From a virus: a DNA stretch of 21,207 nucleotides. Positions 8,554 to 17,208 of the stretch are shown one piece after another. A program made the position numbers and the translations under genes. Position 1 is the first letter of the stretch; every line of letters starts with the position of its first letter. The notes beneath the pieces were generated by a model. The model saw nothing but the letters and a program-made list of their open reading frames with translations, was not told the DNA's origin and did no database searches. Location: positions 1 through 21,207 of the IMG/VR virus record IMGVR_UViG_3300032220_000894; one strand, 5' to 3'.

Positions 8554-8727
8554 TTACCAACCAAGAAAAACATCTTTAGATTGAATTTTAAATTTAACAT
8601 TTTTATCCAAAGAATAGTTCTTTATTAGTTCTTTGCTATTAAATTGTTTTTTAAAAGTTGGTATAGAAATAATTGGATACCCGTCAAGGTATCCAATCAA
8701 ATAGTAAATTTTATTTTTTATATTCAT
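8554..8727 (-). CDS. Small 57-residue hypothetical protein
   Basis: Between the GDP-mannose epimerase gene and the GT2-TPR gene an open frame runs from ATG 8727 to TAA 8554. Its ATG overlaps the upstream TGA as ATGA, the coupling signal used elsewhere in this operon. Without it about 200 nt would be non-coding in an otherwise packed region. The product begins MNIKNKIYYLIGYLDGYPII and ends KDVFLGW. It is basic and rich in Lys, Ile and Tyr, with no clear signal peptide or full membrane span. I do not recognise it. A small partner or regulator of the neighbouring enzymes is possible, but that is a guess from position only. Confidence 0.65.
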   Translation of the reverse strand: MNIKNKIYYLIGYLDGYPIISIPTFKKQFNSKELIKNYSLDKNVKFKIQSKDVFLGW

Positions 8728-9752
8728 CTACGAAAGCGGTCTTCCATATCCAATTGAGCAGAATTGCAATATTCTACTTTATTTTGTTGCAAAACTTGCG
8801 ATTCTATCCAATCATATGTAGACTCCATTCCATCACGCAATGAGCGATAGTTTGGCAAACCAATCATTCGCTTGAACAACTTATTATCAGAATTTCTTCC
8901 ACGAACACCAACTGGTCCTGCAATGTTTTTGATATCAACATTCTTTCCAGAAATCTCAATTGCCATTTCTGCAAGATCATTGATCTTAATCATTTCTTCA
9001 GAACCAATGTTCACAGGAACAGTACAATCCGAATTCATAAGACGAATTGTAGCATCAACACAATCATCGATATACAAGAATGATCTAGTTTGCTGTCCAT
9101 CACCCCAGACTTCAATTTCTGATCCGTTCTCTACCTGTGCAACCTTTCTACACATTGCTGCTGGTGCTTTTTCCTTTCCACCCTGCCATGTTCCTTCTGG
9201 TCCAAAGATGTTGTGATAACGAGCAATTCTAACTCGCATTCCATGATTGCGAGCATATGCAAGATAGAGTCTTTCACTGAATAGTTTTTCCCAACCATAC
9301 TCGCTATCTGGTGCTGCTGGATATGCAGACTCCTCTGAGCATTTTGGATTGTCAGGATCTTCTTGGTTGTATGCTGGATACATACATGCCGAAGACGAGT
9401 AGAAGATCTTTCCTACTTTAGTCTTATGACATCTTTCTACGACATTCAAATTGATGAGTGCAGAATTGTGCATAATGTCAGCATCGTGTTCTCCAGTAAA
9501 AATATATCCAGCACCACCCATATCTGCTGCTAATTGATATACCTCATCGAACTGAACATCAAATGCCTTGTCACAAATTTGTTGTAGTCTCAAATCTCCG
9601 ATAATAAAATCATCTGCTGGAGACTTTGAAAATTCTGGATATTTAAGATCAACAACTCTTACCCAATGACCTTCTCTCTTGAATCGTTTTACAAGATGAG
9701 AACCAATAAAACCACCACCGCCAAGTACAAGAATCTTTTTCATATTAATCAT
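8724..9752 (-). CDS. GDP-mannose 3,5-epimerase-like NAD-dependent epimerase
   Basis: This 342-residue protein is an extended short-chain dehydrogenase. It has the NAD-binding GGGGFIG (residues 11-17), LAADMGGAGYIF (74-85), SSSACMYP with Cys123, YGWEK (152-156), the segment RYHNIFGPEGTWQGGKEKAP, WGDGQQTRSFLYIDD (216-230) and VRGRNSDNKL. This combination is characteristic of GDP-mannose 3,5-epimerase, which forms GDP-L-galactose (and GDP-L-gulose). Cys123 and Lys195 match the family's acid/base pair by pattern. The length is close to the usual one. Met1 and Met4 (ATG 9743) are both possible starts and neither has a clear Shine-Dalgarno sequence. It lies 5 nt after the FkbM gene. The likely role is supplying an L-sugar to the transferases of the island. 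Confidence 0.9.
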   Translation of the reverse strand: MINMKKILVLGGGGFIGSHLVKRFKREGHWVRVVDLKYPEFSKSPADDFIIGDLRLQQICDKAFDVQFDEVYQLAADMGGAGYIFTGEHDADIMHNSALINLNVVERCHKTKVGKIFYSSSACMYPAYNQEDPDNPKCSEESAYPAAPDSEYGWEKLFSERLYLAYARNHGMRVRIARYHNIFGPEGTWQGGKEKAPAAMCRKVAQVENGSEIEVWGDGQQTRSFLYIDDCVDATIRLMNSDCTVPVNIGSEEMIKINDLAEMAIEISGKNVDIKNIAGPVGVRGRNSDNKLFKRMIGLPNYRSLRDGMESTYDWIESQVLQQNKVEYCNSAQLDMEDRFRR

Positions 9753-10436: not shown

Positions 10437-11507
10437 TTATTTGAGGTATGGTTCAATTAATTGATTTCTTGGTATATTTATAGACAAGCAACTTGGAAAT
10501 GGATTGCTTGGAGCAAAATCATTTACTATTATTCTTTTCGAGTGTAAACAAGAATCAATTATCATTTTATAATTTATTTTATTATCTTTTAATAATTTTT
10601 TGTACATTTCCAAAGCATCATTTGGTCTTGATGTTACAAAAATAATCTCATGTCCATCATCTGATAATTGTTTTACTATTTTTAGATTTTCTTCTATTGG
10701 TTCTATGGTATTGTACCAATTTTTGCTGCCATATTTTCCTGTGTTTACCAATACAACGCCATCAATGTCTATAAAATATGTATTTTTAAGGTTTGCCGAA
10801 GAAAACCATTCTTCTTTAGTTCCCCAATCTATAAATTCTGTTGCATCTATCTCAACAAAAACTTTATTATCGGTATCAATAATGTCTGAAATTATATGAC
10901 TAAAATATAATTCTGTTCCTATAGTTTGATGCAAGCGAAAAAATGATTTTATAAAATCATAAGAATTCATCCCATACACTCCAAGACAAATCTTATCAGA
11001 AACTATTTTCTTTTCTACTATTTCTTGTATAATATTGTCTTGATTGACTAATATAAATGATTTTTGTTGAATATTTTTAATAGTGGAATTGACATCTATA
11101 CCAACAACAAAATTTGTCATATTTAGACTATTATATGATACTAAACAATCACAATCCTTTACTACTATTGGTCCACTAATATTTTCTTTTATTAAACAAT
11201 TATATACAGTTTCTGGACTACTATTTGTAGACTCTTCCATTATTACCACTTTATGTGATATATTATGAAAACATTGTTTCAATATTACATCTGCCTCATA
11301 TTTTTGGCAATGCTCTCTCAAAACTACAAAATAAATCATAGAATAATCATCGATAGATAATCCCTCTACAACCTTTTCGATCATTAATTTTCCAGATGGA
11401 TGTGTCAACATCCATTTTGGTTTCATATTTTGAAATCTTGAAGATTTTCCTGCTGCTGGTATTATTAAAATTGGTTTATTTTTGTTTTCACTTTTTGAAT
11501 CATGCAT
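10437..11507 (-). CDS. Nucleotidyltransferase fused to a HAD-type phosphatase domain
   Basis: This 356-residue protein has two enzyme domains. Residues 11-235 look like a sugar-phosphate/alkyl-phosphate nucleotidyltransferase: the glycine-rich IPAAGKSSRF (16-25) followed by KPK (29-31), a metal-site-like VKDCD (116-120) and the closing EFIDWGTKEEW (224-234). Residues 243-356 look like a HAD hydrolase: YFIDIDGVV (244-252, nucleophile Asp247), VTSRP (291-295), Lys324 and IIVNDFAPSNPFPS (326-339), as in small capsule-cluster HAD proteins. The first domain would make an NDP- or CDP-activated group and the second remove a phosphate. The start overlaps the upstream kinase gene by 43 nt. No in-frame ATG lies before the glycine-rich loop other than Met1. 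The substrate is unknown. Confidence 0.8.
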   Translation of the reverse strand: MHDSKSENKNKPILIIPAAGKSSRFQNMKPKWMLTHPSGKLMIEKVVEGLSIDDYSMIYFVVLREHCQKYEADVILKQCFHNISHKVVIMEESTNSSPETVYNCLIKENISGPIVVKDCDCLVSYNSLNMTNFVVGIDVNSTIKNIQQKSFILVNQDNIIQEIVEKKIVSDKICLGVYGMNSYDFIKSFFRLHQTIGTELYFSHIISDIIDTDNKVFVEIDATEFIDWGTKEEWFSSANLKNTYFIDIDGVVLVNTGKYGSKNWYNTIEPIEENLKIVKQLSDDGHEIIFVTSRPNDALEMYKKLLKDNKINYKMIIDSCLHSKRIIVNDFAPSNPFPSCLSINIPRNQLIEPYLK

Positions 11508-12190
11508 AATATAGTTTCTTTCTTTTCTGCTTTGACATATGGAATTATCCTATACAGATGTAACAACAACATAGAATAATGTTGTTTTGTATCGAATTTT
11601 TCGCAAACAGAAATCAATTTTCTTTTTGGTATATTTTGTTTAAATGACCAATAACAAAAAGCATCTTGTAACATTTTAGATTCATCGACTAATGGACAGT
11701 CCACAAATGAATCTAAAAAATCTATAAGATATACTTCGTTATTATTTATAATTACATTTTCAAAAGTTAAATCACCATGACAATAACCATCAGAGACAAT
11801 CCAAGATTGATTCTTTATGATCTCTAATGAATCATCATCAATGTTTATTTCTTTTGCCTTTTTCATTACTAATTCAAAAATATCTTTTTTATTTTCCGTT
11901 TTAAATGAAAATAAATCAATTATATTTTTACAAGATTTTAATGAATTCTGTTGAAAATAAATTGCTAAATTTACTCCAGGAATGTATTCCATATCAAAGT
12001 ACAACAAATCATTTTCAAATCCTGTTTGAAATACTTTTGGTGTTTTTATAAAGGGATGATTAAAATTTATTTGCTTATTTATTTGTTTTAACAATCTTTC
12101 ATTATATTCAATATTTTTAGACTGTTTCCGTATTGTCTTATCATCAACTAGTGTTACTTTACAACCAGAATTTCCAAATAAATTAATCAT
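11465..12190 (-). CDS. APH/choline-kinase-fold small-molecule kinase
   Basis: This 241-residue protein carries the catalytic loop YCHGDLTFENVII (residues 136-148) with Asp140 and Asn145, and the metal-binding LIDFLDS (155-161). These are the marks of the aminoglycoside phosphotransferase/choline kinase superfamily. The N-lobe includes TLVDDKTIRKQ (13-23, with a candidate ATP-binding Lys) and the hinge-like YFDMEYIPG (64-72). It is somewhat short for the family. The phosphorylated substrate may be a sugar, choline, ethanolamine or another alcohol. It lies 1 nt after a methyltransferase gene and overlaps the nucleotidyltransferase-HAD gene, so a kinase-then-nucleotidyltransferase activation route is a reasonable inference. 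Confidence 0.78.
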   Translation of the reverse strand: MINLFGNSGCKVTLVDDKTIRKQSKNIEYNERLLKQINKQINFNHPFIKTPKVFQTGFENDLLYFDMEYIPGVNLAIYFQQNSLKSCKNIIDLFSFKTENKKDIFELVMKKAKEINIDDDSLEIIKNQSWIVSDGYCHGDLTFENVIINNNEVYLIDFLDSFVDCPLVDESKMLQDAFCYWSFKQNIPKRKLISVCEKFDTKQHYSMLLLHLYRIIPYVKAEKKETILCMIQKVKTKINQF

Positions 12191-12191
12191 A

Positions 12192-12869
12192 TTACTTTTT
12201 GATAAAAGGCATTATTTGTGTTTTAAATGATGTAAACGATGTTGCAAATGGTTCGTCTACAATCATATTGTTCTTTTGAATTGGTATTTGTATTGAATCC
12301 ATAATCAATTCAGTTCCCCAATCATGAACTGCTATGCAGTCTCCAGGTTTAATAATTTCAGAATAAATCCAAAACTCTTTTATTTTATCTCCACCATCAC
12401 AAAATATAAAAGTCTTTTTGTCAGAAACATTTAATTTAATATGTTCTATTACTTCCCGAGAAAAAGAATTTCCATGATAAGAATTTACAAAAGGAGAAAT
12501 TTTGGATATTTTATCTAACCAATGCCCACAACCTTCATTCGTTCTAGAATAATAATCCACATAAGGATTCAATTCAAAAGTATCAAAATAAAATCTTTCA
12601 GTTATTGCTGCCATGTTAGCAAAATATGTACTCAATGCTCCTTTTTGAGTTCCAATTTCGACAATATATTCAAATCTATGAGTATCTATATAATACTCTA
12701 AAATTGGTATGGCAAATTGATTTTGTGACATACCACCACCCATATATTTGTGATTTATACTCAATAAATCATTTATATTAATAACTACATTTTTAAATAA
12801 ATCTCTAGGAATTTTTACATTAGATCCGTGTTCTTTGTTAAAAATTGTTTTGTCGTATTGTGTATTCAT
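12192..12869 (-). CDS. Class I SAM-dependent methyltransferase (CmcI / Methyltransf_24-like)
   Basis: This 225-residue protein has the SAM-binding motif YIVEIGTQKGALSTYFAN (residues 68-85), an acidic FELNPYVD (98-105), FIFCDGGDKIKEFWIYSE (154-171) and GDCIAVHDWGTE (176-187). The CDGG...HDWG arrangement resembles the cephalosporin hydroxylase CmcI-like methyltransferases common in bacterial polysaccharide loci. Length is normal. Its leader shares the 13-nt sequence AAACTATATTATG with the nucleotidyltransferase-HAD gene. It probably methylates a sugar or another surface group, but the substrate cannot be read from the sequence. Confidence 0.75.
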   Translation of the reverse strand: MNTQYDKTIFNKEHGSNVKIPRDLFKNVVININDLLSINHKYMGGGMSQNQFAIPILEYYIDTHRFEYIVEIGTQKGALSTYFANMAAITERFYFDTFELNPYVDYYSRTNEGCGHWLDKISKISPFVNSYHGNSFSREVIEHIKLNVSDKKTFIFCDGGDKIKEFWIYSEIIKPGDCIAVHDWGTELIMDSIQIPIQKNNMIVDEPFATSFTSFKTQIMPFIKK

Positions 12870-12881
12870 AATATAGTTTTC

Positions 12882-13784
12882 TTAAAAGTATTTAGAAAAT
12901 CCTTTTTGTGGATTGTATTTAGATTCTGTTTTTTCTATTTGTTCTTCATAAAAATAATGTTTCAAACCCATATACAATGGATATGGATATCTTCCATTGT
13001 CATATGGCAATCTTTTTATCCATATCATATCGATCTTTGGAAATGTTTTAAACATCTTTTCTCTGAGTTCTTCATATACTGCAAGTGCTTCATTTCTTTT
13101 TGGAGATATTGTATACAAATATTCTGGTTGATTTTGATAATGAATTTCTATTCTTTCATCAAATTTTCTCATGTAATTCAATCCAATCCAAGAAGGAATA
13201 TTAAATTTATCATCATAATATGATGAATCTCCATTTGGTGGTAAATCAAATATATGTTGATTTAAATAATCACAAGAAAAAACTTTATTTATATCTTCCG
13301 TATAACCCCACCAGATATGATCTTGAAGTAAATAAGGACGATCTGCATCAATGCCATGCACAAAAATATATCCCTTTGGTGAAGTTCCATCTGTAAATTT
13401 TATATTTACATCATCAACATAAAAATCAACAAAAGATTTCATCATGCATAATGAGTTAGGAAATATGAGTTGATCACTTCTCATCTTAACCGCATATTTA
13501 GATGTACAATGCTTAAGTCCTTCCTTTGTACTCTTAAGTTGAAGATTCATATTGTTATAGTGGGGTGTTATTTTTTCACTTTGAATTATAACAATTCTTT
13601 CATTGTCCTTGTACTTGTCTGGAATAGGTTCTTCGTTCCATGTGGAAACTATTACTTTATTTACGAACCACACCTTTGAATATTCATTTGCAATATCAAG
13701 AGTATCAATTAGAGAACGATTATAATAATTTTGTGAAATTGGTCCTTGCAATATTATATCGGTATCTCTTTCAAAAATTTTCAT
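12882..13784 (-). CDS. WavE-like polysaccharide biosynthesis protein
   Basis: This 300-residue protein starts MKIFERDTDIILQGPISQNY and has VIVSTWNEEPIP (44-55) and YAVKMRSDQLIF (97-108). This combination (ILQGPI, VSTW, KxRSDQ) matches the WavE lipopolysaccharide synthesis family, named for a Vibrio cholerae core-LPS gene. The family is thought to be glycosyltransferase-like, although no strict DxD is obvious here. The C-terminus is basic and aromatic (YPLYMGLKHYFYEEQ). An AAAGG Shine-Dalgarno sequence lies before the ATG. It is separated by 12 nt from each neighbouring gene. Its reaction is not established in the family, so the role is inferred from context. Confidence 0.78.
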   Translation of the reverse strand: MKIFERDTDIILQGPISQNYYNRSLIDTLDIANEYSKVWFVNKVIVSTWNEEPIPDKYKDNERIVIIQSEKITPHYNNMNLQLKSTKEGLKHCTSKYAVKMRSDQLIFPNSLCMMKSFVDFYVDDVNIKFTDGTSPKGYIFVHGIDADRPYLLQDHIWWGYTEDINKVFSCDYLNQHIFDLPPNGDSSYYDDKFNIPSWIGLNYMRKFDERIEIHYQNQPEYLYTISPKRNEALAVYEELREKMFKTFPKIDMIWIKRLPYDNGRYPYPLYMGLKHYFYEEQIEKTESKYNPQKGFSKYF

Positions 13785-13796
13785 ATAAAATAACCT

Positions 13797-14414
13797 TTAA
13801 TTTCTTTTTAATATTGTTAATCCATTGCAATTTGTAAAAATTTTATCTATGGACCATTCAGAATTAGCAATTAAAAATTCAGAAATTGCTGCCTGCAATC
13901 CTCTTTTTATCGTTACTGACTTTGACAGTTTGGATCCCAAATCTTCATGTATCTCATCAATAAATCCATAGGTAGTTGTATCGTGAAAAATTATATATTT
14001 TTTTGCTTTATTTCCATGAAGTTTTAATTCTTCACTCAATTGTCTATAAACATGCAGTGTATCTATAAACAATAAATCCGTCTCTTCAATATTCATATCA
14101 AGACTGTCGCCTAAAATAAATGAATAATTTATATTATTATTTTTAGCATAATCATTTAAGTCATTTAATCTTTCATCAACATTATATTTTTTATCCCAAT
14201 CTGTTGGATGTTTTATATCAATCGAAACTAATTTATTAGGATTTGCAAGTATGAATGGATAAGTTGATATGACCCATCGAACTCCAAGTTCTGTTATGTG
14301 TTTACAATCTTTTGCATATTCCAATAAAGTTGGAATATGCTCATTAATATCAGAAGGAGTATTTACAAAATGTTCGTATGTTTTAAGTATTTTATCATTG
14401 ATGGTATTGTTCAT
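13797..14414 (-). CDS. Class I SAM-dependent methyltransferase (Methyltransf_24-like)
   Basis: This protein of about 205 residues has HITELGVRWVISTYPF (residues 39-54; ELGVR is the SAM-loop signature of this family), LVSIDIKHP (62-70), DLLFIDTLHVYRQLSEEL (113-130) and KYIIFHDTTTYG (139-150). The pattern is that of class I methyltransferases often found in marine bacterial and phage glycan clusters. ATG 14414 is chosen because it overlaps the epimerase stop as ATGA and has GGAAAG 7 nt upstream. A TTG at 14429 would add five residues with no benefit. The substrate is unknown, probably a sugar hydroxyl or amine. Confidence 0.75.
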   Translation of the reverse strand: MNNTINDKILKTYEHFVNTPSDINEHIPTLLEYAKDCKHITELGVRWVISTYPFILANPNKLVSIDIKHPTDWDKKYNVDERLNDLNDYAKNNNINYSFILGDSLDMNIEETDLLFIDTLHVYRQLSEELKLHGNKAKKYIIFHDTTTYGFIDEIHEDLGSKLSKSVTIKRGLQAAISEFLIANSEWSIDKIFTNCNGLTILKRN

Positions 14415-15409
14415 TTGTTCACTTTCCAAAAATTATACATTCCAACATCCAACTCATATTTGGACCAAAGTTTTCTTTCTCTCATTGGTTGTTTCTTTGC
14501 CCATTCCCACATTAAAGACAATCCATCCCGCAAAGATGTTGTCTGTTTATAGTTTAAAATATTTTTAATCTTGTCGTGTGTAACCCATGCATGTTTTACT
14601 TCATGTCTTTGTTCTAGATGAGTCTTTGTTCCAGATCCAATTACATCTATGAGCAAATCACAAGCATCACTTATCGTGATGTGGTCATCTCCACCAATAT
14701 TAAATATTTGTTTTGATGCTCTTTCATCTACTGCTCCCATCCAAAAATAAGGAACACAATCATCAATATAACTAAATGCTCTAGTTTGACTACCATCTCC
14801 ATAAATTGTCATTGGCATATTATTTAAATGCTGATACATCCAAATTCCAATAACATTTCTGTATTTATCCCATATGTTTTGATTTGCTCCATAAACATTA
14901 TGTGGTCTAAAAATACACCAATCTAAACCATGCTGATCTCCCGCAACATGTATATCCATCTCACATGCATATTTTGCTATTCCATATGGATCAATTGGTT
15001 CTTGTTTGTAATCTTCTCGGAATGGGACTTCCGCATTTCCATAAACTGCCATAGTTGAAGTAAAAACAAATCTTTTTATACTGTATTTGATTGAAAGATT
15101 AATTAATTTAGTGGTCGCAATTAGATTGTTTTCATAATTATATTGACGAATAAATGGACTCAATCCTTCAGCAGCATATGCTGCAAAATGAAAAACATAA
15201 TCAAACTTATGATTTTCAAATAGTTTTTCTACTTTATTTTTATCACTGGCAAGATTGATCTTGTAAAATTTTACCTTTTTATTTACATTCTCAATATAAC
15301 CACCAGATAGATCATCAATACCATATACTTCAGCCTTATTGTTTTGAATGATCCAATCTGCTAATCTGGACCCAAGTAGTCCAGCAACTCCTGTAATTAA
15401 AACTTTCAT
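14411..15409 (-). CDS. GalE-like NAD-dependent nucleotide-sugar epimerase
   Basis: This 332-residue extended SDR has GVAGLLG (residues 7-13), an NAD-ribose-binding acidic region YGIDDLSGG, HFAAYAAEG, FTSTMAVYG, the catalytic YxxxK in DPYGIAKYA, RPHNVYGANQNIWDKY and YGDGSQTRAFSYIDD. The layout fits UDP-glucose 4-epimerase and related nucleotide-sugar epimerases or dehydratases. Length is typical. It probably supplies a modified nucleotide sugar, but substrate choice between UDP-, dTDP- and GDP-sugars is not visible. Both ends are ATGA overlaps, so it is translationally coupled to the DUF5672 gene upstream and the methyltransferase downstream. Confidence 0.83.
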   Translation of the reverse strand: MKVLITGVAGLLGSRLADWIIQNNKAEVYGIDDLSGGYIENVNKKVKFYKINLASDKNKVEKLFENHKFDYVFHFAAYAAEGLSPFIRQYNYENNLIATTKLINLSIKYSIKRFVFTSTMAVYGNAEVPFREDYKQEPIDPYGIAKYACEMDIHVAGDQHGLDWCIFRPHNVYGANQNIWDKYRNVIGIWMYQHLNNMPMTIYGDGSQTRAFSYIDDCVPYFWMGAVDERASKQIFNIGGDDHITISDACDLLIDVIGSGTKTHLEQRHEVKHAWVTHDKIKNILNYKQTTSLRDGLSLMWEWAKKQPMRERKLWSKYELDVGMYNFWKVNK

Positions 15410-16098
15410 ATAGTCTCCAATAGTTTAAATTTGTCTGGGTGTGACTCATCACAATGAAATCCAAATGTATTATCTGAACTTAAATTTATTCCATCCACAT
15501 TTTTTATCTCACAAGAAAATTTAAAAGCAACTTCAGTTGGGGCGAAAACAAAACCTTCTTCTTCCAATTGCTTTCTCATACAAACTGCTATAACAAGATC
15601 TTCAGGAATTGCATCATATTCTGATATATACAATTCAGAAACTCTCTTCATTAATTTACTAGACCTTAATGTAAATCCACCATTGCCTACATTATATTCT
15701 AAATTAGATTCAGTTAAATGTCTATGAACAATAGGCCATTTTGTAGTATTGTGATACATATTTGCCCTATTCCACGATGCGCCAATATAATCATACTTTA
15801 AAAATTCATTATTCCATAAATGTGGATTTACTACAAATCCGTCATTTTGAATCAGTAACATATACTTCGTATCGATATGCTTTGGTAAAATAGTTAATGT
15901 AAATTTTTGACACTCATTCCAACTCATTTTTTCTATTAAAATTTTTTCACTATTTTCCAATTCATAATCAGAACAAGTGAAATATTTAATCGAATTAAAG
16001 TCAATATTTTTGATGGAATACTTAACTGCCTTCAGTAAAAGTTGATCGTTTCCAACCCCATCAATAGCAACTAAAGTCACATCATTTAAGTTAAGCAT
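15406..16098 (-). CDS. DUF5672 family, glycosyltransferase-like protein
   Basis: About 230 residues begin MLNLNDVTLVAIDGVGN. Conserved blocks are KYMLLIQNDGFVVNP (78-92), KYDYIGASW (101-109), VGNGGFTLRSSKL (137-149) and PEDLVIAV (165-172). These match the DUF5672 pattern (QxDG, DYIGA, GNGGFSLRS, ED) found in surface-glycan loci, which resembles a GT-A transferase with the QNDG in place of a DxD. ATG 16098 is preferred. It overlaps the upstream gene's end by 8 nt and keeps the expected N-terminus, whereas an ATG at 16170 would add 24 residues inside the upstream gene. The donor and acceptor are unknown. Confidence 0.75.
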   Translation of the reverse strand: MLNLNDVTLVAIDGVGNDQLLLKAVKYSIKNIDFNSIKYFTCSDYELENSEKILIEKMSWNECQKFTLTILPKHIDTKYMLLIQNDGFVVNPHLWNNEFLKYDYIGASWNRANMYHNTTKWPIVHRHLTESNLEYNVGNGGFTLRSSKLMKRVSELYISEYDAIPEDLVIAVCMRKQLEEEGFVFAPTEVAFKFSCEIKNVDGINLSSDNTFGFHCDESHPDKFKLLETI

Positions 16099-16462
16099 AT
16101 GACTTTTCTTCTTTGATGTTCGAATTTGATAAATTATTAATTCGATTCTTAACAGCAAATCTACGATCATTTGTCATGTAGACGGATCTTGCAAGTTCAA
16201 TGAATTCCTCATCGAATTCTAATCTTGATTCTTTAATTCTGATCTCATCTTCAATCTTCCACAATTGTGAATTAATATCTTTGAGTTCTGCAATTTCAGC
16301 AGAAAACTCATTAAGATAATTCATCTTTTCCAGTTCTTTTCGAATTATAAATTTTTCTTTTTTGATATTATACAACTTAGAGGAATCTGTAATATGTTCT
16401 TCTTTAATTTCTAAAATTGTATATTTGTCTATTAATTCACCATTTGAGATTTCAATCATCAT
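16091..16462 (-). CDS. DUF6165-like protein
   Basis: About 123 residues begin MMIEISNGELIDKYTILEIK. The GELIDKxTILEIK opening is the hallmark of DUF6165-like proteins, which occur in glycan gene clusters. The rest is a highly charged helical protein (KEKFIIRKELEKMNYLNEF, AELKDINSQLWKIEDEIR), probably a helical hairpin or coiled coil, with a basic stretch SVYMTNDRRFAVKNRIN. Its function is not known, and it may be a partner of the neighbouring transferases. ATG 16462 overlaps the upstream stop as ATGA. ATG 16477 is possible but would add five residues that the family does not need. Confidence 0.7.
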   Translation of the reverse strand: MMIEISNGELIDKYTILEIKEEHITDSSKLYNIKKEKFIIRKELEKMNYLNEFSAEIAELKDINSQLWKIEDEIRIKESRLEFDEEFIELARSVYMTNDRRFAVKNRINNLSNSNIKEEKSYA

Positions 16463-17208
16463 AGTATATAATTCCATTCTTTTTTGTAAATGTGACTCAC
16501 ATAAGAAAAATCAATGTGTTGATTTTGCCCGTTGATTCTGCGCGAATACATGAACAACTTGCTATTCTTATTTATACGCTCTACCAGATAGCACATTGAG
16601 GTTTCCACAGTGTGTATTTCTTTTGCATTCTCAAGAACCCAACACAAATCAAACAGATTAAATTGATTTATATGTTCAATTTTGTGATATACTTTCTTGA
16701 GAGAGGTTTCTATGTGCATTTCTCTTCTATAGATGCTTGGTGGAGATGCAAACATATCATTAATGAATATGAATTCTTCCCCATCTTCTATGCCTAGAAT
16801 CTCTTTACATCGTTTTTCTCGTTCAGGATTTCTCTTGAAGTTTAAATAATTCACCCAATCTGAACTTTCAATACTGTATCCTAATTTTTGAAACAAAGGA
16901 TACTTTGCTCTCATAGCAGAACTACGGTAGTTGTTATCTAAAAACAAATGTGCATGATGTAGTGGAAAATATATCATTTCATCGGTTTTGATAATATCAC
17001 TTCTTCCATAATATTCAAACCCATCAAAATGATTATTAACATCACAAAATTCTATATGGGGAATATAGTCTTTAACATAAAGAAATTCAGGAATCACAGG
17101 CCAAACAACACGATATCCCAGATCAAGAAAATGTTGTGCTGCCTTCTGGAGATATAAGATATCTCCCATTCCTGCTGGTTGCCAGAATAAGACAAATTTA
17201 TTTTGCAT
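16459..17208 (-). CDS. GT-B-like glycosyltransferase (heptosyltransferase-like)
   Basis: About 249 residues begin MQNKFVLFWQPAGMGDILYL. GMGDILYLQKAAQHF followed by GYRVVWPV resembles the N-terminal GxGDxLxxxPxxxxL motif of GT9-type transferases such as heptosyltransferases. The C-terminal half has FIFINDMFASPP and FDLCWVLENAKEIHTVETSM, similar to the donor-binding half of such enzymes, in which a conserved sequence near an ..A..hT.. motif contacts the nucleotide sugar. At about 250 residues it is shorter than a usual GT9 (about 330). ATG 17208 has GGAAA 7 nt upstream and is preferred over a TTG at 17220. It overlaps the upstream gene by 11 nt. The sugar is unknown. Confidence 0.62.
   Translation of the reverse strand: MQNKFVLFWQPAGMGDILYLQKAAQHFLDLGYRVVWPVIPEFLYVKDYIPHIEFCDVNNHFDGFEYYGRSDIIKTDEMIYFPLHHAHLFLDNNYRSSAMRAKYPLFQKLGYSIESSDWVNYLNFKRNPEREKRCKEILGIEDGEEFIFINDMFASPPSIYRREMHIETSLKKVYHKIEHINQFNLFDLCWVLENAKEIHTVETSMCYLVERINKNSKLFMYSRRINGQNQHIDFSYVSHIYKKEWNYIL

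Follow-up and report, generated by a model that had tools for sequence, protein, structure and literature searches.

What might a marine phage make with two overlapping genes that encode a kinase, a nucleotidyltransferase and a phosphatase? The pair lies on the minus strand of a 21,207-base stretch of DNA (hereafter the window), which is an entire virus record. Its source is a marine-type T4-like phage: the region at 19.6-21.2 kb encodes a RegA-type translation repressor and has clamp-loader genes of T4 type; the gp44-like protein is ~54% identical to its counterparts in Pelagibacter, Methylophilales and Synechococcus myoviruses. The two genes stand in the middle of a glycan cassette (~7.3-19.6 kb) comprising two sugar SDRs, a WavE protein, methyltransferase-like proteins and other glycan-type proteins. 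GC content is 26-30% across positions 10501-16500 and 32-38% elsewhere, in the structural and replication parts, and this lower value suggests a separate origin for the 10.5-16.5 kb stretch.

Several neighbours in the cassette can be assigned to families. A WavE-family protein is encoded at 12882..13784 (minus strand; Pfam WavE, 7.5e-13), and a search of the PDB with its profile gave no match. An SDR sugar epimerase/dehydratase is encoded at 14411..15409 (minus strand; Epimerase, 7.4e-46), GalE-like but under the GalE cut-off. Positions 8724-9752 encode a relative of GDP-mannose 3,5-epimerase (E 2.5e-89 to 2c59), of a kind also seen in the sugar cassettes of several cyanophages. In addition, the frames of a DUF5672 protein (15406-16170) and of a 128-aa protein (16091-16477) share about 80 nt; the 128-aa protein has 87.5% identity in the related locus L005.

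The upstream gene of the pair (11465..12190, minus strand) encodes an APH-fold small-molecule kinase of 241 aa with the motifs HGDLTFEN and DFLD(S). Its match to Pfam APH (PF01636; E 4.2e-5, 23.9 bits) is slightly above the cut-off of 23.2, and 73 of 79 kinase homologues match the same family. Residues K22, H138, G139, D140, N145 and D157 are invariant across the 79. The AlphaFold2 model (pLDDT 96.0, pTM 0.91) has the APH fold, with HGD...N and the subsequent aspartate in the chain. The fold search returned APH(4) (Z 16.3), maltokinase (15.4), fructosamine-3-kinase (about 15) and glucosamine kinase (14.9). Sugar, choline and aminoglycoside kinases score too alike for the fold to name a substrate.

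The downstream gene (10437..11507, minus strand) encodes a 356-aa nucleotidyltransferase-HAD fusion (AlphaFold2 model, pLDDT 91.8, pTM 0.84). One row from an annotated phage record was left out of the input for structure modelling. By itself the fusion sequence gives weak matches to family libraries, and single-sequence searches of the PDB returned nothing useful. Neither the kinase nor the fusion falls into a curated family, save for the general APH model.

The nucleotidyltransferase domain spans about residues 11-240 (10788..11477, minus strand) and carries IPAAGKSSRF...PKWML, KDCD and DWGT. With its signature loop, lysine, metal-binding aspartates and pyrophosphorylase fold, it belongs to the sugar-phosphate nucleotidyltransferase superfamily. 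D118, D120, E165 and K166 are invariant in 79 homologues, and G20, S22, R24, K31 and D227 almost so. The nearest structure is 4EVW, a solved nucleoside-diphosphate-sugar pyrophosphorylase of V. cholerae, which ranks first in the fold search (Z 26.4 over 217 residues at 2.1 A, against 23.2 for the runner-up); the profile search concurs (E 2.7e-15). UDP-glucose and GlmU-type pyrophosphorylases come next. The superfamily also takes in inositol-phosphate and phosphonate cytidylyltransferases, and cytidylyltransferases are among the fold matches.

The remainder of the chain, about residues 243-356 (10440..10781, minus strand), is a predicted HAD phosphatase of the capless type, judged by its DxD motif I and motifs II-IV (DIDG, TSRP, HSKRIIVNDF, with D247, D249, T292, R325, N329 and D330) and by a match to PHROG 1238 at 2e-12. 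D247, D249, R325, N329 and D330 are retained in 78 of 79 homologues. The fold-match list for the fusion was filled by one domain and barely covers the HAD part. A profile search with this part found bacterial Pnkp1, while 1XPJ, a small HAD resembling a stand-alone Vibrio HAD, scored at chance level. Kinship to the EcbF/BcbF HADs (TIGR01689) is weak: 5 of 79 members match, at best 1.5e-6 and short of the curated cut-off, and the fusion of the window is unmatched. EcbF/BcbF capsule phosphatases are likewise small HADs in surface-polysaccharide loci, but they stand alone at about 126 aa. The preliminary description of this DNA, made from its letters, had named these three enzymes and warned that loss of catalytic residues would refute its proposal. 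The residues are kept, and the reading frames and their overlap are exactly as it gave them.

The end of the kinase gene and the start of the fusion gene share 43 nt (11465..11507, minus strand), and an overlap recurs in most non-redundant viral homologues, typically of 10, 32, 38 or 41-43 nt. In the closest relatives (L005, L007 and L008) the fusion begins at the equivalent ATG within the kinase gene. Translational coupling of the two genes would be the natural reading. Both genes are under purifying selection, since the fusion has a dN/dS of about 0.16 relative to L005 and the kinase one of about 0.20. With catalytic residues invariant or nearly so, these dN/dS values and a recurrent overlapping order, the module is far beyond chance. 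DNA identity to L005 across positions 10437-12190 is uneven, at 96-99% in the middle of the fusion, 72-86% at the HAD end and 52-83% in the kinase, suggesting recombination inside the module.

Does the kinase always accompany the fusion, the check that the preliminary description itself proposed? It is found directly upstream in 78 of 87 non-redundant full-length homologues (viral 55/57, bacterial 23/30), a count that includes some viral loci fetched with the kinase as query. In the other nine the kinase is elsewhere in the locus (six), not detected (two) or cut off by the contig edge (one). A search with the kinase profile by itself, sampled as the best 80 of 359 matches and thus leaving distant kinases outside, gave 49 non-redundant viral kinases, with the fusion downstream in 47 of the 47 that could be evaluated. 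The fusion or its nucleotidyltransferase part lies ≤200 nt from 46 of these kinases and within 3.5 kb of one; the contig end cuts the other two.

The pair also occurs in bacteria, among them Vibrio, Marinobacter, Ferrimonas, Prochlorococcus, Pelagibacteraceae, Paenibacillus, Butyrivibrio, Planctomycetota, Ignavibacteriae and Magasanikbacteria. The spread is patchy. Among 117 cyanobacterial genomes three match, two of them along the entire fusion; in a sample of 99 Vibrio the full fusion occurs in two and nucleotidyltransferase-only relatives in a further 13. The plasmids searched gave no match.

The packaging of the three activities varies. One Prochlorococcus genome combines the two-gene pair with two single-chain versions, about 724 and 690 aa long. 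The longer (L065:11776-13950) runs in the order nucleotidyltransferase, HAD, kinase, and the shorter (L166:3599-5671) matches the entire fusion profile and the kinase profile. In four Vibrio LPS-core clusters (L162-L165) the same activities are contiguous and overlapping, and the nucleotidyltransferase is of the type of the nearest solved structure. Unlike in the window, they are three separate proteins: an EcbF/BcbF HAD of 123-126 aa that passes TIGR01689 (228.7 bits against 162), a protein of 525-528 aa, longer than the kinase of the window, that holds the kinase domain in its C-terminal half, and a 4EVW-like nucleotidyltransferase of 245-247 aa. WavE directly follows this set in three of the four loci, with heptosyltransferase- and Kdo-transferase-like genes around.

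The strongest argument for one shared pathway is that the same activities stay together while their packaging changes. The genes might instead adjoin merely since surface-glycan genes cluster, with each serving an unrelated pathway. The order of the wider cassette does vary among relatives, and the window is a mosaic with respect to L005. However, the two genes stay adjacent almost throughout, across phyla whose other neighbouring genes differ, the frame overlap is conserved, and three-domain single chains exist. We reject mere clustering as highly improbable on the strength of those single chains and of adjacency seen from the fusion side and from the kinase side. That the kinase and the fusion belong together, as first proposed, is thus upheld.

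The preliminary description had called the phosphatase the odd part of the set. It is a standing member, since in Vibrio clusters an EcbF/BcbF-type HAD is encoded as its own protein next to the kinase and the nucleotidyltransferase. Its timing is a matter of interpretation. The kinase and nucleotidyltransferase could make the donor alone, with the HAD acting late on a phosphorylated glycan or a side product, like Cj1435 of the Campylobacter capsule, which dephosphorylates glycan-bound serinol phosphate (PMC11800397). The separate HAD of Vibrio would fit such a role, but distant organisms have the HAD in one chain with the nucleotidyltransferase, some of them with the kinase as well. We regard late action as quite unlikely; fusion to the nucleotidyltransferase suggests that the HAD acts early and in a coupled manner.

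Other arrangements of similar domains also occur. An opposite architecture of 457 aa (L002:5353-6726; L025:6623-7996) has an N-terminal beta-phosphoglucomutase-like HAD and a C-terminal nucleotidyltransferase, and in L025 this protein directly precedes the kinase. In three Vibrio loci (L146, L159 and L161) a glycerophosphodiesterase-like protein (HRGxW, by eye), a beta-phosphoglucomutase-like HAD and two nucleotidyltransferases adjoin, perhaps as another activation pathway.

As far as sequence can tell, the logic of kinase, nucleotidyltransferase and phosphatase that was first put forward holds, and it has precedents. In the muramic-acid recycling of Pseudomonas, MupP, AmgK and MurU are a HAD phosphatase, an APH-type anomeric kinase and a nucleotidyltransferase acting in series. 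The module of the window shares this logic; MupP, however, is a separate HAD, and the MupP-AmgK-MurU route belongs to peptidoglycan recycling whereas the present context is surface glycan. The AmgK family model leaves the kinase of the window unmatched and finds 7 of 79 kinases weakly (best E 3.3e-4). Heptose activation by HddA, GmhB and HddC also places a kinase, a HAD phosphatase and a nucleotidyltransferase in one pathway, and HddC (5xhw) is among the fold matches of the nucleotidyltransferase. HddA, however, is a GHMP kinase, and the kinase of the window has the APH fold. No sugar-phosphate isomerase, of the GmhA type or other, stands out among the neighbours in viral or bacterial loci, so the neighbours give no hint of the precursor.

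Beside several sugar-1-phosphate routes, the preliminary description had named LicA-LicC, in which an APH-fold kinase is likewise followed by a nucleotidyltransferase. Here the kinase would phosphorylate choline, ethanolamine, glycerol or a similar alcohol, a CDP-alcohol would be made, the phospho-alcohol would pass onto the glycan and the HAD would trim or proofread. LicA choline kinase (4r77) is among both the profile relatives (E 0.0012) and the fold relatives of the kinase, Pfam Choline_kinase matches 31 of 79 kinases (E up to 0.01), and the cytidylyltransferases noted above would suit this chemistry. But LicA is one of many APH-fold relatives and not the closest, at Z 14.3 and rank 31 in the fold search. 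A phosphatase is foreign to the LicA-LicC route and has no obvious role there.

Neighbouring genes help to choose between the two products. Directly beside the module, viral loci most often have sugar epimerase/dehydratases (23 of 99), GT6 glycosyltransferases (13) and WavE (9); bacterial loci most often have WavE (14 of 100), GT1 and GT2 glycosyltransferases and LPS-core enzymes. WavE lies ≤4 genes away in 10 of the 57 viral loci and in 10 of the 30 bacterial ones. In many phages the fusion is followed by an SDR similar to UDP-glucose and UDP-GlcNAc 4-epimerases, and SDRs of this commonest viral class work on nucleotide sugars. LicD is absent from the 25 commonest neighbour families of viral and bacterial loci. 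Because the neighbours are sugar epimerase/dehydratases, glycosyltransferases and WavE, we favour an NDP-sugar over CDP-choline; a plain LicA-LicC route ranks below it, and we consider the phosphocholine reading in particular unlikely.

We now propose that the two genes form one metabolic unit making a nucleotide-activated sugar, or a close derivative, for the glycan of the phage cassette, and give this reading a probability of about 0.55. It builds on three catalytic domains with intact motifs, constantly linked, fused or re-packaged elsewhere and set in a glycan context, and on the nearness of the nucleotidyltransferase to sugar-1-phosphate pyrophosphorylases in the fold search. Weighing against it are a kinase fold shared with choline and aminoglycoside kinases, a nucleotidyltransferase superfamily that extends to cytidylyltransferases, and neighbours that point to no precursor. 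A precursor, itself phosphorylated, would lose a phosphate to the HAD domain; the APH-fold kinase would add one at the site of activation (most likely the anomeric carbon), and this phosphate would be coupled to a nucleotide by the nucleotidyltransferase. Nearby SDR and glycosyltransferase or WavE-type proteins would then modify and transfer the sugar. The phosphatase may precede the kinase (the order of MupP-AmgK-MurU) or come after it (that of HddA-GmhB-HddC). A single common substrate, its nature as a sugar, the reaction order, the nucleotide and the acceptor are what we infer.

The WavE-family protein at 12882..13784 would be a candidate user of the activated product. Tentatively, the module may even make an undescribed nucleotide-activated donor for WavE-type transferases, common to bacterial LPS-core assembly (Vibrio, Marinobacter, Ferrimonas) and to marine phages remodelling host-surface or virion glycans. 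Campylobacter capsule enzymes of such kind can make unexpected donors, e.g. CDP-6-fructose (PMC10918830). The literature on WavE, wav genes, 4EVW, EcbF/BcbF and the kinase-nucleotidyltransferase-HAD combination yielded no characterised member and no assigned substrate for 4EVW or the Vibrio set; these are weak negatives, since "WavE" is confounded with "wave" and Vibrio-core papers in subscription journals fell outside the search.

The term "new pathway", used at first, is too strong for this window alone, since the module is widespread: its two genes are one instance of a broad, conserved and uncharacterised activation module. Novelty lies in the unassigned product and in a module common to phages and bacterial LPS-core loci; neither fold nor reaction type is new. 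Altogether, dozens of phages and many bacterial phyla keep this three-activity set together in several fusion layouts, and its unassigned substrate marks a clear gap in the biochemistry of surface glycans. The set is relevant to unassigned Vibrio LPS core genes and to the question of what large sugar cassettes do for marine T4-like phages. With small proteins and a crystal structure of one Vibrio relative (4EVW) at hand, the pathway is directly testable in vitro.
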